Positions 1,262 through 24,874 of a stretch of 39,365 nucleotides of DNA are shown here, in pieces. The stretch is from Coriobacteriia bacterium (GTDB taxonomy: Bacteria; Actinomycetota; Coriobacteriia; Anaerosomatales; Kmv31), in contig JACUUM010000023.1 of the NCBI GenBank assembly GCA_014859305.1, forward strand, positions 1 through 39,365. Reading direction: 5' to 3'. The translations under genes were made by a program, and so were the position numbers. Numbering within the stretch: the first letter of the stretch is position 1; each line of letters opens with the position of its first letter. The notes under the pieces were generated by a model. It ran no database searches. It saw nothing but the letters and a program-made list of their open reading frames with translations, and was not told where the DNA came from.

Positions 1262-2350
1262 CTACAGCCTCTCGATCAGCGCGTCCGCGTAGTCCTGGGT
1301 GCCCACCGACCCTTCAGTGGAGCCGGTGTTGGTGCGCTTGATGTCGTAGGTCACCCGCACGCCTTCGGCCAGGACAGCACGTACCGCGCCGAGGATGCGC
1401 TCGGCGGCGTCGCGCTCGCCGACGTGTCTGAGCATCAGCACGGCCGTGAGGATCTCGGCGGTGGGATTGGCGACGTCCTGTCCCGTGTACTTGGGCGCCG
1501 AACCGTGGACCGGCTCGAACACCGCGCACTCGGCCCCGATGTTCGCACCCGGCGCGATGCCGAGCCCCCCTACGAGCCCGGCGGCCAGGTCGCTCACGAT
1601 GTCGCCGTACAGGTTCGGCAGCACGAGGACGTCGAACCTCCAGGGCTGCAGCACCAGCTGCATGCACGTGGCGTCCACGATGTAGTCCTCGAACTCCACC
1701 CGCCCCTCGTACTCGGCCGCCACCCGGCGGGCGACGTCCAGGAACAGCCCGTCGGAGTGCTTGAGGATGTTGGCCTTGTGGATCGCCGAGACCTTCTTGC
1801 GGCCGTTGGCCAACGCGTACTCGAACCCCCAGCGTACGATGCGCTCGGAACCGCTGACCGAGATGGGCTTGAGCGAGATGCCCGAATCGGGTCTTATCGT
1901 CCCCGCCCCGTGGGCGGCCACCCACTCGATGAGCTCCGCGGCCTCCGGGCTGCCCTGCTCGAACTCGATGCCCGCGTAGAGGTCCTCGGTGTTCTCGCGC
2001 ACGAGCACGATGTCGACGTCGTCGTAGCGCGCGCCCGTACCGGTTATCGAGAACGCCGGCCGGAGGTTCACGTAGAGGTCCAGGGCCTTTCGCAGGGCCA
2101 CGTTGACGCTGCGGAAACCCGTGCCCACGGGTGTCGTGACCGGCCCCTTGATGGCGACCTTGTTGCGCCGGATCGACTCGATGACCTCGTCCGGCAGAGG
2201 CGTGCCGAACGCGTCCACGACGCCGGCGCCCGCCTCGACGACCTCCCACTCGATCTCCACGCCGGCGGCCTCGACGACGCGCCTCATGGCCGTCGTGATC
2301 TCGGGGCCGATGCCGTCGCCGGGGATGAGGGTGATGGTGTGCTTCGCCAC
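1262..2350 (-). CDS. icd: Isocitrate dehydrogenase, predicted NADP-dependent
   Basis: This 362-residue enzyme of the isocitrate/isopropylmalate dehydrogenase family oxidatively decarboxylates isocitrate to 2-oxoglutarate. I chose the GTG at 2350, with GGAAGG upstream, because family homology begins there; an upstream ATG adds 30 unrelated residues. The substrate segment RSVNVALR (residues 80-87) carries the Ser and Asn typical of isocitrate enzymes, S81 and N83, not the Leu-rich isopropylmalate form. R97, R118, K192, D250 and D254 fit the remaining active-site positions. The coenzyme loop HGSAPKY (282-288) has Lys-Tyr, and VTYDIKR (333-339) keeps Tyr and Arg, so all four NADP-specificity residues of E. 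coli Icd have counterparts. It sits downstream of hydratase and synthase genes, which completes a citrate-to-2-oxoglutarate branch. Homoisocitrate dehydrogenase is the main alternative but is less likely on these residues. Confidence 0.88.
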   Translation of the reverse strand: MAKHTITLIPGDGIGPEITTAMRRVVEAAGVEIEWEVVEAGAGVVDAFGTPLPDEVIESIRRNKVAIKGPVTTPVGTGFRSVNVALRKALDLYVNLRPAFSITGTGARYDDVDIVLVRENTEDLYAGIEFEQGSPEAAELIEWVAAHGAGTIRPDSGISLKPISVSGSERIVRWGFEYALANGRKKVSAIHKANILKHSDGLFLDVARRVAAEYEGRVEFEDYIVDATCMQLVLQPWRFDVLVLPNLYGDIVSDLAAGLVGGLGIAPGANIGAECAVFEPVHGSAPKYTGQDVANPTAEILTAVLMLRHVGERDAAERILGAVRAVLAEGVRVTYDIKRTNTGSTEGSVGTQDYADALIERL

Positions 2351-2430
2351 GCGGAGGCCGCCTTCCGTCGAGGATGTGCCCGGACCGCCGGGCACGGGCC
2401 GTGCGGGCCGCCCGGTCCGAGCAGGAGGAG

Positions 2431-2439
2431 AGTGTAGCA
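2431..2439 (-). promoter_or_regulatory. Candidate extended -10 promoter for icd
   Basis: On the minus strand the sequence reads TGC-TACACT, an extended -10 element (TG one base before a 4/6 match to TATAAT). No good -35 is seen, as is common for extended -10 promoters. Transcription would begin near 2424, about 75 bases before the GTG start of the dehydrogenase. It would let this gene be transcribed apart from the HEAT-repeat gene upstream. Confidence 0.4.
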
Positions 2440-2494
2440 AACGCGGCGGTCGCGAGCCGAGGAACGAGCCGGCTACCGGTGTTCAGAGGATCCT

Positions 2495-2513
2495 CTCCCG
2501 GCCCCCGCGGGAG
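2495..2513 (-). terminator. Weak hairpin after the HEAT-repeat gene
   Basis: CTCCCG and CGGGAG form a 6-bp stem with a 7-base GC loop, beginning about 15 bases after the stop of the HEAT-repeat gene as read on the minus strand. There is no T-run. It could attenuate read-through into icd, but in DNA this GC-rich a stem of this size can occur by chance. Confidence 0.3.
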
Positions 2514-2527
2514 GAGTGGTCCGCGGT

Positions 2528-3178
2528 CTACGCCCCGGGGTTCTTCGGTCCCCGGGCGACGATCCGCTTGGCTTGCCTGCTGATGGCCGCGCGAGGATGC
2601 GTCGTCTCGGGCTCGACGGTCCTGGCCGCATCCGCGCGCACCGCCTCGGGCGCGGCCCCTTCGACGAGCGTGACCACTCCGGCCAGCATCCCGGGATACT
2701 CCGGGTCGCCGTGGTAGGCGCGGAGAGCCTCGTCGAGCAGCGGCCAGATGCGCTCCGCACGCCTCGCGGTGGTCGACCCGTACGCTGCGAGCATACGGAA
2801 CGCCGCGACGCGTACCACCCCCGACTCGGCGTCGTGCAGCGAAACGGTCGCGGGCGCGATCGCCTTGTCGAGCAGGCGGGCGTCCACGCGCGCGAGCTCC
2901 TCGAGCCCGCCGAGGACCTCCCAGCGCGTCTGCACCTCGGGACGCTCGAGCGCGTCGATCAGCTCGGACGCGTACGGCTTCAGGGCCTGGGGCTCGCGGC
3001 AGGCGACCTCGTGCAGCGCCTCCGCGGCCCGGGCACGCTCCGTGCGGCCGGGACCGGACAGCGCCTCGAGCAGACGCCTCATCGCAGCCGGCTCCGCCAG
3101 GGCGCGCGTGGCGACCGCGTCCTTCCCCTCGGCCAAGCTCGATTCCACCGATCCCTTCGCTCGCGCCTCACCAGGCAT
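2528..3178 (-). CDS. HEAT-like repeat protein
   Basis: The predicted 216-residue soluble protein is made almost wholly of amphipathic helices in pairs of about 35-40 residues, for example around RARAAEALHEVA, RWEVLGGLEELA and VVRVAAFRMLAAYG. This is the pattern of HEAT/armadillo-type repeats, which act as protein-binding scaffolds. The ATG at 3178 is preferred over 3229 because GGGAGG lies 6 bases before it and a TATACT -10 box lies just upstream; the longer start would place both inside the gene. It lies between the hydratase small subunit and icd on the same strand, with about 200 bases on either side, so it may be an independent unit. No catalytic motif is seen. A role in the neighbouring pathway is only a guess. 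Confidence 0.7.
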   Translation of the reverse strand: MPGEARAKGSVESSLAEGKDAVATRALAEPAAMRRLLEALSGPGRTERARAAEALHEVACREPQALKPYASELIDALERPEVQTRWEVLGGLEELARVDARLLDKAIAPATVSLHDAESGVVRVAAFRMLAAYGSTTARRAERIWPLLDEALRAYHGDPEYPGMLAGVVTLVEGAAPEAVRADAARTVEPETTHPRAAISRQAKRIVARGPKNPGA

Positions 3179-3204
3179 GCGATCCTCCCAGCATCCAAAC
3201 GGTA

Positions 3205-3210
3205 AGTATA
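3205..3210 (-). promoter_or_regulatory. Candidate -10 box for the HEAT-repeat gene
   Basis: The minus strand reads TATACT, a 5/6 match to the -10 consensus, with GCGTCA about 18 bases upstream as a weak -35. Transcription would start near 3198, giving a leader of about 20 bases that holds the GGGAGG ribosome site and the ATG at 3178. The box lies just beyond the end of the antitoxin-like fragment. Confidence 0.45.
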
Positions 3211-3213
3211 ACC

Positions 3214-3321
3214 TCAACGGTGGCGACATGACGCTTCCCGGAAGCTGCGCCGCCTGAGACGCCGGCGCAGCGATCCCGCGTCTTCGAACACGTCGTCAGG
3301 GATCGAGACGGCTGTCTTCAT
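3214..3321 (-). pseudogene. Truncated ribbon-helix-helix antitoxin-like fragment
   Basis: An ATG at 3321 opens a 35-codon frame starting MKTAVSIPDDVFEDAGSL. This closely resembles the first strand and helix of CopG/MazE/ParD-type antitoxins, where MKTAVSIPDDVFE-like N-termini are typical. Where family members continue with a second helix and a C-terminal toxin-binding arm, this frame turns into an Arg/Ser-rich stretch and stops, so only about half a DNA-binding domain remains. No toxin gene is visible on either side. I read it as the decayed end of a toxin-antitoxin pair, or a frame-shifted antitoxin. It fills much of the 210-base gap between the hydratase small subunit and the HEAT-repeat gene. 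A chance resemblance cannot be excluded, given the short match. Confidence 0.5.
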
Positions 3322-3388
3322 ACGCGGAGTATGACCAGCCGAGGAGGCAGCGCGAACCCCGTAGGCGCCCGACGCCCGCCGGGCAGCG

Positions 3389-3892
3389 CTACAGCGCGAA
3401 ACCGCCATGCTTCTTGAAGTGCTCGACCAGCCCGCCGTCGGCGAGCAGCTGCGCCATCACCGGCGGCAGCGGCGCGAACGGGATCTCGACGCCCTTGGTC
3501 ACGTCGCGGACCACGCCGGACTCCAGGTCGAGGGCGAGCTCGTCGCCGTCGTCGACGAGGTCGGTGTCGCACTCCACCACGGGCAGACCGGTGTTGATCG
3601 CGTTGCGGTAGAAGATCCTCGCGAAGCTCTTGGCGAGCACCGCCTTGGTGTCGGAATGGATGAGCACGAGCGGTGCCTGCTCCCGGCTCGATCCCATGCC
3701 GAAGTTCTTCCCGGCCACGAGGAACCCGCCCTCGCGCTTGACCTTCTCGTAGTAGCGCGGGTCGAGCTCCTCCATGGCATGGACCGCCATCGCTTCCATG
3801 TCGGCGGACTTGAACTTGTACTTCCCGCTGATGATGTAGTCGGTGTTGATGTCGTCGCCGTACTTGAAGGCCTTCGCCCGGATCTCGCTCAC
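3389..3892 (-). CDS. Aconitase/isopropylmalate isomerase-type hydratase, small subunit
   Basis: The 167-residue swivel-domain subunit of a two-part aconitase-superfamily hydratase pairs with the large subunit encoded just upstream. Landmarks are GDDINTDYIISGKY near the N-terminus (residues 12-25), the GKNFGMGSSREQAP substrate-phosphate-type loop at about 61-74, and YRNAINTGLPVVE at about 100. Size is normal for LeuD/HacB-like proteins. The start is GTG with GAGGAGA 7 bases upstream. The specificity loop after the IIxxxY motif reads YKFK here. As I recall, isopropylmalate isomerases and methanogen homoaconitases have YLVY- and YLRT-like loops, so neither applies. Context with a (homo)citrate synthase and an isocitrate dehydrogenase suggests citrate/isocitrate isomerisation. 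Isopropylmalate or homocitrate remain possible substrates. Confidence 0.85.
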   Translation of the reverse strand: MSEIRAKAFKYGDDINTDYIISGKYKFKSADMEAMAVHAMEELDPRYYEKVKREGGFLVAGKNFGMGSSREQAPLVLIHSDTKAVLAKSFARIFYRNAINTGLPVVECDTDLVDDGDELALDLESGVVRDVTKGVEIPFAPLPPVMAQLLADGGLVEHFKKHGGFAL

Positions 3893-3947
3893 GTCCGCTC
3901 TCCTCGCGCTCGGCTCGCCTCCCGCGGCGCGGTTCCGCCGCCGTCCG

Positions 3948-5216
3948 TCAGTCCGCGTACCCCCGCGGGTCCGCTATACGCCCCTCGATGACGCTCGCCG
4001 CCACCGTGGCCGGGCTGCCGAGGTATATGAAGGCGTTGCTGTTGCCCATGCGACCCTTGAAGTTGCGGTTCGCCGTGGAGATCACGTTCTCGCCGTCGGA
4101 GGGCACGCCGTTGTGCGTGCCCACGCACGGCCCGCAGCCCGGCGTGACCACCGCGGCTCCCGCCTCCACGAGCGCCTGGATGTGGCCGGCCGCCATCGCG
4201 TCGAGGCAGACGCGCTTGGAGGCCGGCGCCACGATGAAGCGCACGTCGGGATGGACGCGGCGTCCTCGCAGGATCCCGGCGGCGACCGCGAGGTCCTCCA
4301 GCCGCCCGTTCGTGCAGGTGCCCACGAAGCCCTGCTGTATCGGCGTCCCCGCGACCTCCTCGATCGGCGAGACGTTGTCGACCGCGTGCGGCTTGGCGAC
4401 CTGCGGCCCCACCTCGCTCGCGTCGACCTCGATCGCCTGCGCGTAGACCGCGTCGGCGTCGGGGTCGACGGGCTCCGGGGCGCGGTGTCCCCGGCCCTCG
4501 TACCACGCGAGCGTCTTGTCGTCGGCGCGCATGAGCCCGGCCTTCGCGCCGACCTCGATCGCCATGTTGGACATCGTCATGCGGGCCTCGACCGAGAGGG
4601 CTTCGACGGCGGGCCCGTGGAACTCCAGGGCGCGGTACGTCGCGCCGTCCACGCCGACCATGCCGGCGAGGCGGAGGATGAGGTCCTTGCTGTACACGCC
4701 GGGCCGCAGCTCCCCGCCGAAGACCACCTTGATCGTCTCGGGGACCCTGAACCACAGCTTGCCCGCGGCCATGACGGCCGCGCCGTCGGTCGAGCCGACA
4801 CCCGTGGAGAAGACGTTGACGGCTCCATAGGTGCAGGTGTGGCTGTCGCAGCCCACCATGAGGTCGCCGGGCACCACGTGTCCCTGCTCGGGGATCAGCT
4901 GGTGGCACACGCCCTCGCCGATGTCGTAGACCTTCACACCGGTCGCCCGCCCGAAATCGCGCATCACCGTGTGCAGCGCCGAGACGCCCTCCAGCGGGCT
5001 CGGCGAGGAGTGGTCGATCACGAGGGCGACCTTGGCCGGGTCGAACACGCTCCCCACGCCCATGCGCTCGAGCGCGCGGATCGCCAGGGGGGACGTCCCG
5101 TCCTGGCCCATGACGAAGTCCACGTCGGCCACGACGATGTCGCCGGCGCGCGCGTCGGTCCCGGAGTGCGTGGAGAATATCTTCTCCGCGATGGTCTTGC
5201 CGGGGATCGGTCTCAC
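3948..5216 (-). CDS. Aconitase/isopropylmalate isomerase-type hydratase, large subunit
   Basis: The 422-residue iron-sulfur subunit is of the LeuC/HacA size class, shorter than bacterial leucine-only LeuC. The three ligands of the 4Fe-4S cluster are visible as C301 (GTCTNGR) and C361/C364 (PGCGPCVG). VGCDSHTCTYGA (121-132) and the C-terminal RNFKGRMGN segment are family landmarks. With the small subunit it would dehydrate and rehydrate a tricarboxylic acid. It starts at a GTG 4 bases after the synthase stop, with AGGAGA overlapping that stop, so the two genes are very likely co-translated. The genes on either side argue for an aconitase role in a citrate branch, but the sequence alone does not separate aconitase, homoaconitase and isopropylmalate isomerase. 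Confidence 0.88.
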   Translation of the reverse strand: MRPIPGKTIAEKIFSTHSGTDARAGDIVVADVDFVMGQDGTSPLAIRALERMGVGSVFDPAKVALVIDHSSPSPLEGVSALHTVMRDFGRATGVKVYDIGEGVCHQLIPEQGHVVPGDLMVGCDSHTCTYGAVNVFSTGVGSTDGAAVMAAGKLWFRVPETIKVVFGGELRPGVYSKDLILRLAGMVGVDGATYRALEFHGPAVEALSVEARMTMSNMAIEVGAKAGLMRADDKTLAWYEGRGHRAPEPVDPDADAVYAQAIEVDASEVGPQVAKPHAVDNVSPIEEVAGTPIQQGFVGTCTNGRLEDLAVAAGILRGRRVHPDVRFIVAPASKRVCLDAMAAGHIQALVEAGAAVVTPGCGPCVGTHNGVPSDGENVISTANRNFKGRMGNSNAFIYLGSPATVAASVIEGRIADPRGYAD

Positions 5217-5220
5217 TCTC

Positions 5221-6426
5221 CTAGACGCTCGCCTCGGCGGTGGCGGCCTTGCCGGCCCACCGCCCCTTGAAGTCGTTGTAGATGTAGAGCAACTCCTTGT
5301 CGAACAGCGAGCGCTTCAGCTCTATGGCGCACCTGCGCACCGCCGGGAGCATCTCGGCGGCCTGCTCCTTGGTCAGCGGGATGCCGTACTCCTCGAACTT
5401 CATCTCGATGGCGCGGCTCCCCGAGTGCTTGCCGATGACGATCTGGCGCTGCAGGCCGACCTCGTCGGGACTGAAGACCTCGTAGGTCTTGGGGTTCTTG
5501 ATGACGCCGTCGGCGTGTATGCCGCTCTCGTGCGCGAACATGTTCGTCCCGATGACCGACTTCCACACCGGGATCTGCCGGCCCGCCGCTCCCGCGACGT
5601 ACTCGCCCAGCTCGCGGAAGCGCCTGGTGTCGAAGTCCAGCTCGAGGTCCTCGATGTACTTCAGCGCCATCACGACCTCTTCCAGCGCCGCGTTGCCCGC
5701 GCGCTCGCCCAGCCCTCCGACCGTCACGTTCACCCAGTTCGCGCCCGCATGGACACCTGCGATCGCGTTCGCGACGGCCATGCCGAAGTCGTTGTGCGTG
5801 TGCATCTCGATGTCCATGTCGCACTGCTCGCGCAAGTGCTTGACGACGTTGTAGGTGCGGAAGGGCTCCATGACGCCGATCGTGTCGCAGAACCGGATGC
5901 GGTCGGCGCCCTCGGCCTGGGCGGCGCACGCGTACTCGGTGAGGAACCCGATCGCCGTGCGCGACGCGTCCTCGGCGTTGACGGAGACGTACACGTCGTG
6001 GGACTTGGCGAAGGCGACGCACTCGCGGATCGTGTCGAGGACCCACTCGCGGTCCTTGGCCAGCTTGCTCTGGATATGGATGTCGGAGGTGGCCAGGGAG
6101 ATCGCCACCGCGTCCACGCCGCAGGACAGCGAGGTCTTGATGTCATTGATGTTCGCCCGGTTCCAGCCCAGCACCGACGCTCGCAGCCCCAGGTGCGCGA
6201 TCTCCTCGATGACATCGCGCTCGTCGCCGCCCATCGCCGGGATGCCGGCCTCGATCTGATCGACCCCGATCTCGTCGAGGAGCCGTGCGATGCGGATCTT
6301 CTCCTGGTTCGCGAAGACGACCCCGGCGGTCTGTTCGCCGTCGCGCAGGGTCGTGTCGTCGATCATCACGCGCTTCTCGCCGAGCAGGCTCGAGACAGGC
6401 ATGTCCTGAGCCATGGTCTTGTCCAC
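5221..6426 (-). CDS. Homocitrate synthase-like enzyme, candidate Re-citrate synthase
   Basis: The 401-residue enzyme belongs to the HMG-CoA lyase-like/isopropylmalate synthase family and condenses acetyl-CoA with a 2-oxo acid. It shows DDTTLRDGEQ (23-32, metal ligand D29), MHTHND (208-213, ligands H209 and H211), GGLGERAGN (237-245), FAHESGIHADG (297-307) and GKHSG (332-336). It ends soon after the catalytic and linker region and lacks the C-terminal leucine-binding regulatory domain of LeuA, like NifV homocitrate synthases and the Re-citrate synthase class related to them. GTG at 6426 (or 6429) is chosen because AGGGAGG is 8 bases upstream; the ATG at 6414 lies too far from it. The downstream hydratase and isocitrate-type dehydrogenase favour oxaloacetate as acceptor, giving citrate. 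Homocitrate synthase for lysine or a cofactor is the alternative. Confidence 0.85.
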   Translation of the reverse strand: MDKTMAQDMPVSSLLGEKRVMIDDTTLRDGEQTAGVVFANQEKIRIARLLDEIGVDQIEAGIPAMGGDERDVIEEIAHLGLRASVLGWNRANINDIKTSLSCGVDAVAISLATSDIHIQSKLAKDREWVLDTIRECVAFAKSHDVYVSVNAEDASRTAIGFLTEYACAAQAEGADRIRFCDTIGVMEPFRTYNVVKHLREQCDMDIEMHTHNDFGMAVANAIAGVHAGANWVNVTVGGLGERAGNAALEEVVMALKYIEDLELDFDTRRFRELGEYVAGAAGRQIPVWKSVIGTNMFAHESGIHADGVIKNPKTYEVFSPDEVGLQRQIVIGKHSGSRAIEMKFEEYGIPLTKEQAAEMLPAVRRCAIELKRSLFDKELLYIYNDFKGRWAGKAATAEASV

Positions 6427-6535
6427 CACCGCGACCTCCCTGAGATGGAGGGCTCGGACGCGCAGGCCGACGCGCACGAGCGAGGGGTCTTGTTCACGGC
6501 GCCACCGCGCCGGGGATGAGCGAACCGGGAGCATG

Positions 6536-6565
6536 AGTGTAAGGCAAGGACGCGCGCCGGTACAA
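6536..6565 (-). promoter_or_regulatory. Candidate promoter of the citrate-branch operon
   Basis: On the minus strand TTGTAC (6560-6565) and TACACT (6536-6541) lie 18 bases apart. The -10 hexamer is identical to the one proposed for icd. Transcription would start near 6529 and leave a leader of about 100 bases before the GTG at 6426. No convincing attenuator or riboswitch fold is seen in that leader. The region is shared with the divergent AcuC-type gene, for which I find no clear promoter. Confidence 0.4.
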
Positions 6566-6679
6566 ACCTCCCCACGGCCGGCGCAGGCGCCGGGGCTCGT
6601 CGGCTCGGGATGCGTTACGCCTCGCGGCGCTCCACGCGTTTCGGGCATCATCGTGACGGAACCGCCGGGAGGGGCTGCG

Positions 6680-7882
6680 ATGGGCGACGTCATGCTCGTG
6701 TACGATCCCGCGATGGCCTCCTACGACCTGGGGCCCTGGCACCCGCTGCGGCCCGAGCGCTTCACGCTGGCCGTCTCGCTGATGCGCGCGCTGGGCCTGC
6801 TGGCCGAGGACGGAGCCCCGTCCTCGTCTGCTGCCCTCGCGGCGGGCTCCGGGGCGCGCGCTCGCGTCGTCGCGCCGGCGCCCGCGGAGGAGACCGATCT
6901 CCTGCGAGTGCACGACGCGCGCTACGTGGAGGCCGTGAAGCGCGCCTCGGCCGACCCGGGGGGCTTCGTGCCGGCGATGGGGCTGGGAAGCGGCGACAAC
7001 CCCGTGAGCGCCGGGATGCACGAGGCCGCCGCGCTCATCTGCGGCGGGGCGATCGCGGGCCTGCGAGCCGTCCTGTCCGGCCAGACGACCCGCTCCTTCA
7101 ACGTGGCCGGCGGCCTGCACCACGCGCACCGCTCTCGCGCCGCCGGCTTCTGCGTCTACAACGACCCCGCCGTCGCTATCGCGGCGGCCCTGGAGACGGA
7201 CCCCGGGCTTCGTCTCGCATACGTCGACGTCGACGCCCACCACGGGGACGGCGTCCAGGAGGCCTTCTACGCCGAGCCCCGCGTGCTGACGGCCTCCGTT
7301 CACGAGAGCGGCGCCCACCTCTTCCCCGGCACCGGCTTCGCCGACGAGACCGGCGCCGGGGCAGGCGCGGGGACCGCGCTCAACGTCCCGATGCCGCCTC
7401 TCGCCACGGACGCGTGCTACGAGCTCGCGATGCGCGACGCCGTCGAGCCGGCGGTGCGCTCGTTCTCGCCCGACGCGATCGTCGCCCAGCTCGGCGCGGA
7501 CTCGCACCACGCCGACCCGCTGACCACCTTGGGCCTCACCCTGCCCGGGTACCGCTCGGTGGTGCGGCGCGTCGTCGCGTTGGCCGACGAGCTGTGCGGG
7601 GGCCGCCTGGCGGCCTCGGGCGGCGGAGGCTACGGGGCGTACTCCGTGGTGCCGCGCGCTTGGGCGTGCGCTCTGGGCGAGCTGCTCGGCGTGGAGCCGG
7701 CCGAGGAGCTGCCGGCGGCTTGGCGCGAGGAGGCGCGTGCCGCGGCGGGCGGGCGCGACCCCGGCGGGCGGCTGACCGACGACGACCTCCTCGAGCTCGC
7801 GCCCGGACGAGAGGCGCTGCTGCTCGAGCAGGCGGCCGCCTCGGTCGCGCGCGTGCGCCGGGTCTCGCCGCTGCTCGCGTAG
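6680..7882 (+). CDS. acuC: AcuC-type histone deacetylase-family protein
   Basis: This 400-residue zinc-dependent deacetylase of the arginase/HDAC fold removes acyl groups from lysine side chains; in Bacillus, AcuC acts on acetylated acetyl-CoA synthetase. The catalytic His pair is H147-H148 in GGLHHAH, the zinc ligands fit D185 and H187 (DVDAHHGDG) and D274 (LGADSHH), and the catalytic Tyr is Y318 after the GGGG turn. The length matches AcuC. I chose the ATG at 6680 because GGGAGGGG lies 7 bases upstream and homology starts there. It is divergent from the citrate-branch operon and convergent with a YihY gene. The shared intergenic region might link acetyl-CoA consumption to deacetylation, but no AcuA-like acetyltransferase or acetyl-CoA synthetase is visible nearby. 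Confidence 0.9.
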   Translation: MGDVMLVYDPAMASYDLGPWHPLRPERFTLAVSLMRALGLLAEDGAPSSSAALAAGSGARARVVAPAPAEETDLLRVHDARYVEAVKRASADPGGFVPAMGLGSGDNPVSAGMHEAAALICGGAIAGLRAVLSGQTTRSFNVAGGLHHAHRSRAAGFCVYNDPAVAIAAALETDPGLRLAYVDVDAHHGDGVQEAFYAEPRVLTASVHESGAHLFPGTGFADETGAGAGAGTALNVPMPPLATDACYELAMRDAVEPAVRSFSPDAIVAQLGADSHHADPLTTLGLTLPGYRSVVRRVVALADELCGGRLAASGGGGYGAYSVVPRAWACALGELLGVEPAEELPAAWREEARAAAGGRDPGGRLTDDDLLELAPGREALLLEQAAASVARVRRVSPLLA

Positions 7883-20385: not shown

Positions 20386-21303
20386 ATGAACGCCGGCTTC
20401 GATGGTGGCATCCCGTACCGCTGCCTCGGGCGGACCGGGGAGAAGGTCTCCGTGGTGGGGCTGGGCGGCTTCCACCTCGGCAAGGTCCGCGACAGGACCG
20501 AGGGCGTCAGGCTGGTGCACGCCGCGCTGGAGAACGGCGTGAACTTCCTCGACAACTCCTGGGACTACCACGACGGCGAGAGCGAGCGCCTGATGGGCGA
20601 GGCGCTCAAGGGCGGCTACCGCGACCGGGCGTTCGTGATGACCAAGGTCGACGGCAGGACGGGGTCCTCCGTGCGCTCCCAGCTCGAGGAGTCGCTGCGC
20701 CGCCTCGCGGTGGACGTGATAGACCTCGTGCAGTTCCACGAGATCATCCGGCTGGACGACCCGAAGCGCATCTTCGAGGAGGGCGCCGCCGAGGAGATGC
20801 TCGCGGCGCGCGACGAGGGACTGCTGCGCTACATCGGGTTCACGGGACATAAGGATCCGCGGATCCACCTGCGGATGCTGGAGACGGCCGACTTCAACGC
20901 CTTCGTCTTCGACGCGGTGCAGATGCCGCTGAACGTCTTCGACGCGCAGTACAACAGCTTCGAGAAGCTGGTCCTGCCGCTGCTGGTCGAGCGGGACATA
21001 GGCGTGCTGGGCATGAAGCCGCTGGGGTCGGGCAGGATCCCGGAGACCGGGGCGGCCAGCGCCACGGAATGCCTGCACTACGCGATGAACCTGCCCACCT
21101 CGACCGTGATCACCGGCTGCGAGAACATGCAGGACCTGCAGCAGGCGCTGCATGCGGCACACACGTTCGAGCCGATGACCGACGGGCGGCTCACGGAGCT
21201 CCTGAGGCGCACCGCGCCGTACGCGGTGCGGGGAGCGCACGAGGAGTACAAGACGACGGAGAAGCACGACGGCACCGCGCGCAACCCCCAGTGGCTCGGC
21301 TAA
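20386..21303 (+). CDS. Aldo/keto reductase
   Basis: The 305-residue NAD(P)H-dependent oxidoreductase has the catalytic tetrad D56, Y61, K87 and H118 in the expected contexts (FLDNSWDYHD, MTKVD, VQFHEI). The C-terminal half shows GVLGMKPLGSGRI and a TVITGCENMQDLQQ segment for cofactor binding. No extra iron-sulfur domain is present, unlike many AKRs of anaerobes that end in a ferredoxin-like part. A ribosome site GGAGGG precedes the ATG. The gene overlaps the convergent ferritin-like gene by 4 bases at the stop codons. The substrate is unknown. Confidence 0.9.
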   Translation: MNAGFDGGIPYRCLGRTGEKVSVVGLGGFHLGKVRDRTEGVRLVHAALENGVNFLDNSWDYHDGESERLMGEALKGGYRDRAFVMTKVDGRTGSSVRSQLEESLRRLAVDVIDLVQFHEIIRLDDPKRIFEEGAAEEMLAARDEGLLRYIGFTGHKDPRIHLRMLETADFNAFVFDAVQMPLNVFDAQYNSFEKLVLPLLVERDIGVLGMKPLGSGRIPETGAASATECLHYAMNLPTSTVITGCENMQDLQQALHAAHTFEPMTDGRLTELLRRTAPYAVRGAHEEYKTTEKHDGTARNPQWLG

Positions 21304-21599
21304 CCTCCGGCCAGCAGCTCGTCGACCTCGTCGGCGCCTCGTCGGTAGAGCTCCTTCTCGCTCGGCTCGAGTGCGTAGAGCAGCTGCAGGAACTCGCCGG
21401 CGTGCACGCGCTCCTCGTCCGAGACGTCTGCGAGCACCTTGATCGCGCGCTCGTCGTCTATCGAGTCCGCGATCTGCATGTAGAGCTGCACCGCCTCGTA
21501 CTCGGCGGCCACGAAGTACCGGATCGCACGCACCAGCTCGTCGTGCGTCAGCCTCCGCTCGGCGTTCATGCCGGGCAGGAACGAGCCGAACTCCGGCAT
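21300..21599 (-). CDS. Encapsulated-ferritin-like (EncFtn) two-helix protein
   Basis: The 99-residue protein is a half-ferritin with two main helices. E33, E35, Y39, E62, E63 and H66 occur in AAEYEAVQLY and DEERVHAGE. These match, with an offset of one, the ferroxidase-site residues that I recall for Rhodospirillum rubrum EncFtn (E32, E34, W38, E61, E62, H65). Such proteins form a decameric ring with metal sites at dimer interfaces and oxidise ferrous iron inside an encapsulin shell. Two oddities: the C-terminus (ELLAGG) has no clear encapsulin-targeting extension, and no encapsulin gene is nearby. It is the last gene of a possible unit with PfkB and PncA. A general rubrerythrin-family call is the fallback. 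GGGGAGG lies upstream of the ATG. Confidence 0.75.
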   Translation of the reverse strand: MPEFGSFLPGMNAERRLTHDELVRAIRYFVAAEYEAVQLYMQIADSIDDERAIKVLADVSDEERVHAGEFLQLLYALEPSEKELYRRGADEVDELLAGG

Positions 21600-21640
21600 C
21601 GGATGCCTCCCCTCCGCGCCCGTGCTCGGCGCTGGTCGAG

Positions 21641-22624
21641 CTACCCTCCCCTGTTCATCCCCCCGGCGGCGCCGCACGATCGCTCGCCGTGCTCGATGCA
21701 CGCGAAGAGGGCGTCGGTGTCGTCCTTGCGGCAGAGCTCCGTGCCCGGCGTCATCACGGCCGCCGCTCCCGCGGCCACGGCATAACGGGCCGCCCGGACG
21801 GCGTCCCATCCGCGCGCGAGCGCGGCGAGCATGCCGGCCACGGTCGAGTCGCCCGCCCCGATGCGGCTGCGCACGGGGACGGCGGGAGCGGCGATGCGCA
21901 CCGTATCGCTGGAGGTGACCAGCACCGCCCCCCCTGCGCCGAGCGTGACGAGCACCATCTCCACGGTGCCGTCCTCCACGAGACGACCGGCGGCGGAAGC
22001 GGCGTCCTCCTCCGTGCGCAACTCGCGACCGGCGTACTCCCCCATCTCGCGGAAGTTCGGCTTGAGCAGGTACAGACCGCCGCCGTCCAGCGCCCGCCGC
22101 AGCGCGTCGCCGCTCGTGTCCACGACGCAACGCGCGCCGCGCCGCCGCGCGACCTCTGCGAGCCGCGCGTACAAGTCGGGCGGCGCGCCCGGGGGCAGGC
22201 TCCCGCTTCCGACGAGGAAGTCGCCGGCGGCCGCCTCACCCTCCGCCGCCTCCAGCAGCGCGTCGGCCTCCGCGCCGCTCATCGGGCAGCCGGGCATGCC
22301 GAAGCGGAAGGCGCTCCCCGTCCCGCGCTCGAACACCGTGAGGTTCTCCCGGGTCTCCTCGGCGATGGGCGCGACCGCGTGAGGCACCCCCTCCTCGAGC
22401 AGTCCCGACGCGAGACGCTCGCCCGTGAAGCCTCCCGCCGCGATGACGGCCGTCGCGGCGCCGCCGAGGCGGAGCATCGCGCGGGCGACGTTGACGCCCC
22501 CGCCGCCCGGGTCGCGACTGACGTCGCCGCAGCGCAGCTTGCGTTCGGGGACGACGCGCTCGCACGTGGCGCTGCGGTCGACCGCCGGGTTCGCCGTCAC
22601 CGTGACCGCTCGGGGCGCGCCCAC
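21641..22624 (-). CDS. pfkB: PfkB-type sugar kinase, probably 6-phosphofructokinase II
   Basis: The 327-residue ribokinase-family kinase is closest in pattern to E. coli PfkB. It has ANPAVDRS at the N-terminus, KLRCGDV, GGGGVNVARAMLRLGG near residue 40, GSGSLPPG near 138, KPNFREM near 187, and the GAGDS active-site loop near 254 with its catalytic Asp. It would phosphorylate a sugar phosphate such as fructose 6-phosphate; tagatose 6-phosphate and fructose 1-phosphate are used by close relatives. The start is GTG, 2 bases after the stop of the nicotinamidase gene, so the two are probably co-translated. Glycolysis is the likely pathway. Confidence 0.85.
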   Translation of the reverse strand: MGAPRAVTVTANPAVDRSATCERVVPERKLRCGDVSRDPGGGGVNVARAMLRLGGAATAVIAAGGFTGERLASGLLEEGVPHAVAPIAEETRENLTVFERGTGSAFRFGMPGCPMSGAEADALLEAAEGEAAAGDFLVGSGSLPPGAPPDLYARLAEVARRRGARCVVDTSGDALRRALDGGGLYLLKPNFREMGEYAGRELRTEEDAASAAGRLVEDGTVEMVLVTLGAGGAVLVTSSDTVRIAAPAVPVRSRIGAGDSTVAGMLAALARGWDAVRAARYAVAAGAAAVMTPGTELCRKDDTDALFACIEHGERSCGAAGGMNRGG

Positions 22625-22626
22625 CG

Positions 22627-23238
22627 CTACAGCTCCCCGCTCGTCACGAGCGTGGCGCCCCTCTCCACCATCTCGCGGAGCGCCCGCTCGCCGTCACCCG
22701 GCGTGAGGTCCACCGCCCGGCACCCGTCGGTCACCACGGACACCCCGAAGCCGAGCTGCAGGGCGTCACGCGTCGAGTACAGGACGCAGTAGTCGGTCGC
22801 CAGACCGAGGAGCACGACGTCGGTGACGCCGCGCTCCCTCAGGTACCCCTCGAGCCCGGTGGACTTCAGGTGGCGGTTGTCGAAGAACGTGCTGTAGCTG
22901 TCGATCGTGGGGTCCGTGCCCTTGCGGATCACGTGGTCGACGTGCTCGACGTCGAGCCCGGAGTGGAAGCTCGCCCCCGGGGTGTTCTGGACGCAGTGGT
23001 CCGGCCACATCACCTGCGGCTCGCCGCGCAGCTTCCCGACGTCTCCCGGCTTCATCCCGGGGTGGTTGGACGCGAAGCTGCCGTGGTCGGGCGGGTGCCA
23101 GTCCTGCGTGGCCACGACGAGTCCGTACCGCGGCATCAGCGCGTTCGCCACCGGCACCGCCTCGTCGCCGTCGCGCACCGGCAGCGCGCCGAAGGGCATG
23201 AAGTCGTTCTCCAGGTCCACCACGATGAGCGCTTCCAT
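22627..23238 (-). CDS. pncA: Nicotinamidase
   Basis: The 203-residue isochorismatase-fold amidase converts nicotinamide to nicotinate for NAD salvage. The catalytic triad is D8, K106 and C151 (VDLEND, RKGTD, ATDYCV). Metal-ligand candidates are D46, H48, H52 and H81 (QDWHPPDH, WPDHC). The ATDYCVLYS signature is typical of PncA and not of isochorismatases. It is about 85 bases downstream of the nicotinate phosphoribosyltransferase gene on the same strand, which uses its product, so the two steps are probably co-regulated. Confidence 0.93.
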   Translation of the reverse strand: MEALIVVDLENDFMPFGALPVRDGDEAVPVANALMPRYGLVVATQDWHPPDHGSFASNHPGMKPGDVGKLRGEPQVMWPDHCVQNTPGASFHSGLDVEHVDHVIRKGTDPTIDSYSTFFDNRHLKSTGLEGYLRERGVTDVVLLGLATDYCVLYSTRDALQLGFGVSVVTDGCRAVDLTPGDGERALREMVERGATLVTSGEL

Positions 23239-23322
23239 ACCGAGTTCCTTCCCTTCGCGTCGTCCGCTGCGGCATCCGACGGCGAGCGGCAGCGGCTCCG
23301 TCCTGGGCGGCCGGCGCCCGCC

Positions 23323-24783
23323 TCAGCCGCCCTCCGCGCGGCGTGCCTCCAGGATCAGCCGCGTCCGCAGGTCGTGCAGGCGCTCCTCGAGCCCCACGGG
23401 GTACGGGCGCGGGTCGAGGAAGCGCTTGTGGGAGTCGTCGAGCCGCTCGAGCTGCGCGAGCGTGCGCCGGCGGACCTCCGGCAGCGGCGGCGGCTCCCGA
23501 ACCGGCTCGCCGCCGCGGAACACCGGCACCAGCAGCTCCTCGGCGGGCTCGTCGCGGCGGAAGGTCTTGGTGCGAGTCGGGTCGGCCGGATCGACGATCG
23601 TAACGGCACCCGGCGGCGGGTCCTCCACGAGGTAGACGGCGTCGCCGGCGAAGAGGCCCTCGCGCGTGAAGCGCCTGACCCCGAGCAGCCCCGGGACGGT
23701 CACCTTGACGGTCTCCTCGGAGACCTTGATCCGCGGCTCCCACCGGCCGCCAGGCTCACGGATGGCGGAGAGCTTGTAGACGCCGCCGAGGGCGGGCTGG
23801 TCCCACGCCGCCGCGAGCCGTGTCCCAACACCGAAGACGTCGATGGCCGCGCCCTCGGCGATCAGGCCGGCGACCACGTGCTCGTCCAGGTCGCTGGAGG
23901 CGACCACGACCGCGTCGGGGAAGCCGGCCTCGTCCAGGATCGCCCGCGCGCCCACCGAGAGCCCCGCGAGGTCGCCGGAGTCGATGCGGACACCGATCAT
24001 CTCGTGCCCTCGCTCGCGCAGCCGTCTCGCCGCCGCCACGGCGCGCCTGACGCCCTCGAGCGTGTCGTAGGTGTCCACGAGGAAGGTGCCGTTGTTCGGC
24101 AACGCATCCGCGTAGGCCTCGAAGGCCTCCGCCTCGCTGGGGAACGCCATCACCCAGCTGTGGGCGTGCGTCCCGATCGCCGGGATGCCGAAGAGCCGCG
24201 CCGCGAGCACGTTGCTCGTGCCCGTGCATCCGCCGACGTAGGCCGCCCGGCTCGCCGAGACCCCTCCGTCGGGGCCCTGCGCCCGCCGTAGGCCGAACTC
24301 CACGACCGGACGCCCCTCGGCGGCCAGGCAGACGCGGGCCGCCTTGGTCGCCACGAGCGTCTGGAAGTTGACGATGTTGAGCAGCGCCGTCTCCACGAGT
24401 TGGCACTGCGCTATGGGCCCGGTGACGCGTACCAGCGGCTCGTTCGCGAACACGACGGTCCCCTCGGGAACCGCGTCCACGTCGCAACAGAACCTCAGGT
24501 CACGCAGGTAGGCGGGGAACCATTCCTCGAAGATCGGCTCCCCGTCGTTGCCCGTCCGGGCCGCCAGCCACTCCAGGTCCTCGTCGGTGAAGCTCATCCC
24601 GGTGAGGAACTCCGCGGCCTGCTGCAGGCCCCCCGCGACCGCGAAGGCGCCCCCGAAGGGGCTCTCGCGGAACAGGACGTGGAACGCCGCTTCGGTGTCG
24701 GCCTTGCCGCTCTTCACGTACCCGTAAGCCATCGTGAGCTGGTACAGGTCGGTGAGCATGCCGGATGTGCCGTACCCGTCCAT
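23323..24783 (-). CDS. pncB: Nicotinate phosphoribosyltransferase
   Basis: The 486-residue enzyme makes nicotinate mononucleotide from nicotinate and PRPP. It has MLTDLYQLTMAYGY at the N-terminus, EFGLRRAQGPDGG near residue 160, GTHAHSWVMAFPSE near 205, FLVDTYDTLEGV near 236, IRIDSGDL near 268 and VFGVGTRL near 320. All are standard for this family. I chose the ATG at 24783; the frame runs 15 codons further up without similarity. It leads a unit with pncA, in line with the nicotinamide salvage route. The C-terminal part is the usual extension. Confidence 0.93.
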   Translation of the reverse strand: MDGYGTSGMLTDLYQLTMAYGYVKSGKADTEAAFHVLFRESPFGGAFAVAGGLQQAAEFLTGMSFTDEDLEWLAARTGNDGEPIFEEWFPAYLRDLRFCCDVDAVPEGTVVFANEPLVRVTGPIAQCQLVETALLNIVNFQTLVATKAARVCLAAEGRPVVEFGLRRAQGPDGGVSASRAAYVGGCTGTSNVLAARLFGIPAIGTHAHSWVMAFPSEAEAFEAYADALPNNGTFLVDTYDTLEGVRRAVAAARRLRERGHEMIGVRIDSGDLAGLSVGARAILDEAGFPDAVVVASSDLDEHVVAGLIAEGAAIDVFGVGTRLAAAWDQPALGGVYKLSAIREPGGRWEPRIKVSEETVKVTVPGLLGVRRFTREGLFAGDAVYLVEDPPPGAVTIVDPADPTRTKTFRRDEPAEELLVPVFRGGEPVREPPPLPEVRRRTLAQLERLDDSHKRFLDPRPYPVGLEERLHDLRTRLILEARRAEGG

Positions 24784-24874
24784 CGGCGTCGCTCCCCTCG
24801 GCGGGTCTCCCGGCGCGTGGGCCGCCACTATTCTCCCACGACCCGCCGAGGACCGTCCGCCGCCCCGCCCCCCG

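Follow-up and report, generated by a model that had tools for sequence, protein, structure and literature searches.

We analysed a stretch of 39,365 nucleotides, contig JACUUM010000023.1 of a Coriobacteriia bacterium assembly (GCA_014859305.1), which we call the window. On its minus strand lies an open reading frame (ORF) with the ATG at 21599 and the stop codon at 21300-21302, and its product is a short ferritin-like protein (FLP) related to the ferritins that are packed into encapsulin shells (Table 1). The C-terminus of the FLP reads ...EVDELLAGG and contains no targeting motif such as [L/T]x[V/I]GSL, in agreement with the initial annotation, which had described an encapsulated-ferritin-like protein without a targeting tail. 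The PfkB kinase and the aldo/keto reductase named there as neighbours are also in place. In our view, this member of the EncFtn/EncB ferritin-like family is probably free and shell-independent; its biochemistry is inferred.

Table 1. Features at the FLP locus of the window.
Feature	Coordinates	Strand	Basis	Remark
Tail-less EncFtn/EncB-type FLP, 99 aa	21300..21599	-	ORF, profile, sequence and structure matches	
Ribosome-binding site GGAGGGGAGG	21606..21615	-	Read directly	6 nt ahead of the FLP ATG
PfkB-family (1-phosphofructokinase-like hexose kinase) gene	21641..22624	-	ORF and profiles	41 nt upstream of the FLP; context only
Aldo/keto reductase gene	20386..21303	+	ORF and profile	Convergent, its stop codon adjoining that of the FLP; context only

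The NCBIfam model NF058679 (EncB_fam) matched the FLP with 82.1 bits (E 2.8e-23) and TIGR04535 with 66.7 bits (E 1.7e-18), under their curated cut-offs of 90 and 125, respectively. Pfam Rubrerythrin reached 25.1 bits, over its cut-off of 22.8, and Pfam EncFtn-like 21 bits, under its cut-off of 27. Among solved proteins, the top sequence matches were P. furiosus 5n5e (E 2.6e-14) and 2e0z, followed by EncC 7s8t (E 5.4e-11); chance similarity is far weaker than this. The AF2 single-chain model (mean pLDDT 90.6; built on 21 aligned rows, of which two are the window protein) has two long antiparallel helices and a shorter third, which is the fold of the EncFtn/EncB type. Every one of the best 50 of 561 Foldseek matches was an EncFtn-family chain. 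In VIA-align, entries 1-13 belonged to the EncFtn family (Z 9.3-11.0), and an ESCRT-III hairpin and sulerythrin/rubrerythrin came next at about 8.3. Because such Z values are weak alone for helical hairpins, the assignment is carried by the sequence match, and a fold that is missing from the VIA-align list is not thereby ruled out.

The EncFtn identity proposed in the initial annotation thus holds at the level of the family, whereas its nearest relatives are on the EncB/EncC/P. furiosus branch and not with R. rubrum EncFtn. The top match, the P. furiosus encapsulated ferritin PFC_05175 (5n5e, a fusion-FLP; Foldseek 38% identity, TM 0.81, Z 11.0), shares the two-helix chain and the site with the window FLP. 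Unlike it, the window FLP is unfused and its genome has no PF04454 shell gene. M. xanthus EncC and EncB (7s8t, 7s5k) carry a targeting peptide, and EncC resembles the window FLP (Z 10.5), which in contrast has neither a C-terminal targeting peptide nor an EncA-type shell and stays below the EncB_fam cut-off. R. rubrum EncFtn (Rru_A0973, 5da5) has the same fold (Z 10.3) and the same diiron residues and spacing, but the sequence match is weak (E 0.07), its entry residue E31 is replaced by Ala, and the window FLP lacks its tail and shell. Nitrosomonas NE0167 (3k6c) is similar in structure (Z 10.2) but distant in sequence (28% identity, E 0.0024), and the putative tail of its type, LFTD(E/N)KPIAHE, is absent from the window FLP.

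Rubrerythrin has a four-helix diiron domain within one chain, usually with an additional rubredoxin domain. Rubrerythrins and sulerythrins belong to the same superfamily as the window FLP (Z about 8), but the solved ones listed have chains of at least 137 residues, whereas the window FLP corresponds to a two-helix half, of which two have to come together to make a site. The initial annotation had allowed that a rubrerythrin might match better; EncFtn-family entries outranked it in both sequence and structure. We rejected a rubrerythrin identity for this chain of 99 aa with two long helices, which contains no cysteine and no rubredoxin motif.

The residues E33, E35, E62, E63 and H66 are located where the initial annotation had placed its ferroxidase site, with EncFtn spacing, and only the tyrosine needs correction. 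It is Y40; Y39 is the R. rubrum numbering, which is offset by one in the 5da5 match (29-74 versus 28-73). In R. rubrum EncFtn, the site is described as E32, Y39, E62, and H65, with E31/E34 as the entry pair (He et al., 2016, PMC5012862). The corresponding site residues of the window FLP are E33, Y40, E63, and H66, and the counterpart of the entry pair is A32/E35. E33, Y40, E62, E63, and H66 are conserved in all 124 aligned relatives; position 35 holds E in 92 of them and D in the other 32.

The search for an encapsulin gene that the initial annotation had recommended returned no PF04454 match in the genome of the window (2.13 Mb, 76 contigs, 98.1% complete), while 3 of 14 control genomes gave matches. 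An FLP was found at E <= 1e-6 in 52 of 396 genomes of the same phylum, and we searched PF04454 in these and in two genomes from another search (54 in all). The shell model matched in seven, and all seven hold an FLP with a targeting-type end (PTVGDLS in four, and PTVGDLA, TIGSLFE, and TIGSLID in one each). None of the other 47 has such an FLP end. In 32 genomes of the phylum (L022-L031, L074-L098; L and G denote our loci and genomes), FLPs of the P. furiosus fusion type occur unfused and tail-less, none of them together with PF04454. PF04454 was also absent from all 23 named genomes with relatives (Methanocorpusculum, Geobacter, Akkermansia, Methanocalculus, Thermosipho, Rhodoferax, Bathyarchaeota, and others). 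The C-termini of the tail-less relatives, whose comparison had likewise been suggested, have no evident common motif in the 22 of these 23 that were readable. Two genomes of Akkermansia muciniphila carry two adjacent FLP copies with Cys/His-containing ends, e.g., KASCKDGSCSSH (L046:9337-10333, L047:9329-10342), and a Geobacter FLP (L034:10001-10342) also has a Cys-rich end.

The coupling of tail and shell was put to the test in Thermotogota, where EncB_fam matched at E <= 1e-8 in 81 of 103 genomes. Encapsulin is present in 44, and in all 44 the shell gene comes immediately after the FLP in the same orientation, 18-274 nt separating the match ends. Ten of the 44 have FLPs of the window type (11 copies), each with EEP[TS][IV]GS[LM] near the end. 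The other 34 have R. rubrum-type FLPs, most with an L-x-I/L-type tail; no clear motif was seen in G550-G552, and the R. rubrum-type FLP of G513 (L189) has SLGLGKM near its end. The 37 FLP genomes without PF04454 have window-type FLPs, none with the motif, and that of G517 is frame-broken.

We scored the tail by regular expressions on two trees. The labels of the 95-row tree name ten bacterial and archaeal phyla beside that of the window, and many of those genomes are metagenome-assembled. This tree keeps 3 of the 32 fusion-type rows and leaves out the R. rubrum-type Thermotogota rows, two duplicates, L192 (another protein), and L148 (the frame-broken FLP of G517). Both this and a 78-row tree omit the fragments L032, L055, and L068 as well as identical cores. 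In the 95-row tree, the tail state fits the shell state in 94 rows (18 with both, 76 with neither), with L072 as the exception, so that the tail is carried by 18 of 19 rows from encapsulin genomes versus 0 of 76 others. All tail-bearing rows fall into one 27-row clade (100/100), the cargo clade, which includes nine tail-less rows. The 65 window-type rows outside it, including the window FLP, are all tail-less. The 95-row tree rests on few alignment columns, and its bootstraps are not settled. The 31 tail-less rows sampled for the 78-row tree group together as a clade (98/92).

PF04454 was found in none of the 66 genomes holding window-type members outside the cargo clade. These are 8 of the window's own phylum (including G164 with a fragment), the 23 named genomes (including the fragment L055), and 36 Thermotogota, with one genome counted twice. 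In G164 (L032/L068), a TAA interrupts the window-type FLP 38-39 residues from its beginning, and the gene is perhaps a pseudogene. The suggestion of the initial annotation that the protein is free-standing is supported by the missing tail and by the lack of PF04454 in its own genome and in these 66. Its other suggestion, a cargo targeted by another signal or by fusion elsewhere, found no support, given the lack of a shared C-terminal motif and the same 0 of 66. Since the tail-bearing relatives are confined to one clade, the 65 rows outside are tail-less, and none of the 66 genomes has the shell gene, the window FLP, judged from these sequences, does not have the appearance of former cargo whose shell was lost by chance.

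Residue types near the site follow the same division. For these counts, the cargo clade was hand-listed after the 27-row clade, with its nine tail-less rows included. Q38 and Q42 each occur in 65 of 65 tail-less rows outside it, whereas the 27 rows of the cargo clade have H38 in 21, A42 in 20, and H43 in 24. The fusion-type rows (n=32) have Q42 in all 32 and N38 in 29. Because Q42 is common to the fusion type, Q38 marks the tail-less set and Q42 does not. That the histidines of the cargo clade route iron is our guess.

The states with and without a shell occur at one and the same locus in the bacterial family f36 (L062-L067; 11 genomes, six with an FLP and two with encapsulin). The gene order there is a PEP-synthase-like gene, a small membrane protein, the FLP, and a small zinc-ribbon-like protein, as named from sequence reading. 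G196 and G176 have a tailed FLP with encapsulin between the FLP and the zinc-ribbon gene (FLP end at +336 and shell at 362-1183 in G196; +399 and 410-1249 in G176). G143, G080, and G120 have the same neighbours and no shell, and their FLP stops at +249 to +255. G095 keeps only the upstream side of the neighbourhood.

A decaying shell is seen in the Thermotogota genome G577 (L112). The core of its FLP equals the G576 orthologue in 88 of 97 residues (dN 0.043, dS 0.53), and an in-frame stop lies immediately ahead of a ghost tail, PTFGSLKEGER. Just encapsulin fragments in more than one frame remain 3' of the FLP, and the genome has no PF04454 match. At the orthologous locus of G576 (92% identity over 1519 nt downstream), the tail is retained and the shell gene is truncated, and a second locus in that genome has an intact FLP/shell pair (G576 loci L109, L139). 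The simplest order is that the shell was broken first and the tail was lost later, with the ring kept. On a wider scale, shell-less, Q38-marked EncB-type rings, which are distributed across ten named phyla of bacteria and archaea, are possibly the state from which the cargo was recruited, with tail and shell added and later both lost in several lines, leaving working rings; we put this forward tentatively.

Several observations weigh against shell independence of the window FLP. The 65 tail-less rows outside the cargo clade form no demonstrated clade in the 95-row tree, which draws the cargo clade inside them. Only three well-supported independent pairs are available for the tail-shell association (sign test p 0.25-0.5). 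The branch of the window FLP is long (0.53-0.69), and its exact placement is unsure. The second FLP of G421 (L072) is motif-less though its genome has encapsulin, and the tail-less FLP of G095 ends in ...AETGSL, with partial likeness to the TIGSL motif. PF19307 (Family-2 shell) matched in 0 of 40 genomes, but the control genomes were silent as well. The stop codons of G577 may come from assembly error. The 2024 review PMC11202242, where it turns to tail-less FLPs, notes that they could in principle be encapsulated.

Upstream of the FLP on the same strand (window 21641-24828) are genes for nicotinate phosphoribosyltransferase (NAPRT), nicotinamidase (PncA), and the PfkB kinase. Apart from NAPRT and PncA, no gene of this neighbourhood was met again; these two are present in L057 (G050) at a distance of about 3.6 kb or more from the FLP, in a different order. 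An aldo/keto reductase match near the FLP in L075 has 30% identity to that of the window. Among the neighbour families listed (42/43 loci), none was an operon partner conserved across phyla, and one family of 15 loci was discarded as ORFs antisense to the FLP, hence not genes. The FLP gave zero matches in plasmid and phage collections. Elsewhere in the window (1262-6693, minus strand), a leucine-biosynthesis-like run (isopropylmalate dehydrogenase, isomerase subunits, synthase) was recognised by eye from ORFs only.

In the EncFtn family, the site forms between two chains, and the assembly is an open ring. By analogy, two chains of the window FLP would pair, and E33, E63, H66, and Y40 of each would build one diiron site. 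The pairs may come together as an open ring, which in solved relatives is a D5 decamer, and such a ring would use O2 or H2O2 to oxidise cytosolic Fe(II). Hosts of tail-less FLPs are mostly anaerobes. Since an open ring cannot hold mineral, it would either detoxify or hand Fe(III) to another store, e.g., a bacterioferritin-like protein. The genome of the window has an intact gene for such a protein, about 138 residues long when counted from the likely start, so that iron storage need not depend on the FLP. We dropped the idea that the only ferritin of the genome is broken, as the TAG within the match is where this intact protein naturally ends.

One can also imagine a free ring or dimer that, as rubrerythrin does, draws electrons from a redox partner to remove H2O2 or O2, rather than oxidising iron as such. 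This is conceivable, though we would not favour it. The shared superfamily points this way, with Pfam Rubrerythrin over its cut-off and sulerythrin/rubrerythrin structures ranking after the EncFtn entries, as do the mostly anaerobic hosts and a putative hybrid-cluster protein gene 2.2-3.1 kb downstream of the FLP in L051, L052, and L054 (Methanocalculus/Methanocorpusculaceae), which we take to be such a gene. However, the chain has no rubredoxin motif, no linked reductase is present in the window, and the solved relatives are described as ferroxidases (PMC5012862).

Loading of the host's own ferritin or bacterioferritin cage, with the FLP as an iron chaperone or ferroxidase, appears unlikely. 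It would fit with the bacterioferritin-like protein in the genome and with PF00210 matches in 36 of 40 genomes (38 tail-less, 2 tailed). PF00210 also matched in 14 of 14 control genomes, and hence the co-occurrence says little; moreover, 4 of the 40 have no match at all, and no genomic linkage was seen. Very improbable is a cargo role in a missed encapsulin-like shell (its capsid being divergent, of Family 2, or encoded on a contig that was not assembled) with an unrecognised loading signal: the fold and site match known cargo, the NCBIfam family takes its name from encapsulin cargo, the genome is a draft in 76 contigs, the PF19307 controls were silent, and G421 shows a tail-less copy coexisting with a shell, but neither PF04454 in the 66 genomes, nor a common C-terminal motif, nor a neighbour conserved across phyla among the families listed was found.

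The free, shell-independent FLP that we prefer is not without precedent. The tree of He et al. (2016, PMC5012862) contains a "Non-EncFtn" group without encapsulin sequence, and PMC11202242 names the short tail-less forms s-FLPs, represented by NE0167, leaving it undecided in that section if there is a binding sequence among their last 10 residues. The window FLP fits this definition of an EncFtn relative without encapsulin targeting sequence, like the Non-EncFtn group, with which we compared it by description. FLPs found together with encapsulins are covered in sections of PMC8346489. In the open-licence literature, by title and abstract start, we found no study devoted to the function of shell-free FLPs. 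The tail-less relatives are thus already named in print, and what is new here is another member and a firmer case for shell independence.

The name "EncB family encapsulin cargo" of the NF058679 model is an annotation trap for tail-less, shell-less FLPs. The model scored over its cut-off of 90 in 9 of 10 tail-less relatives examined (from L033-L048), and 28 of the 38 Thermotogota genomes over this cut-off have no PF04454 encapsulin. For the branch of the window FLP, the genome comparison argues against encapsulation, at least in classical encapsulins. EncFtn is characterised in PMC5012862 as a ferroxidase unable to mineralise iron by itself, and its shell-less relatives therefore raise the question of the role of a lone open ring. 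The same-locus pairs with and without a shell are natural material for testing.
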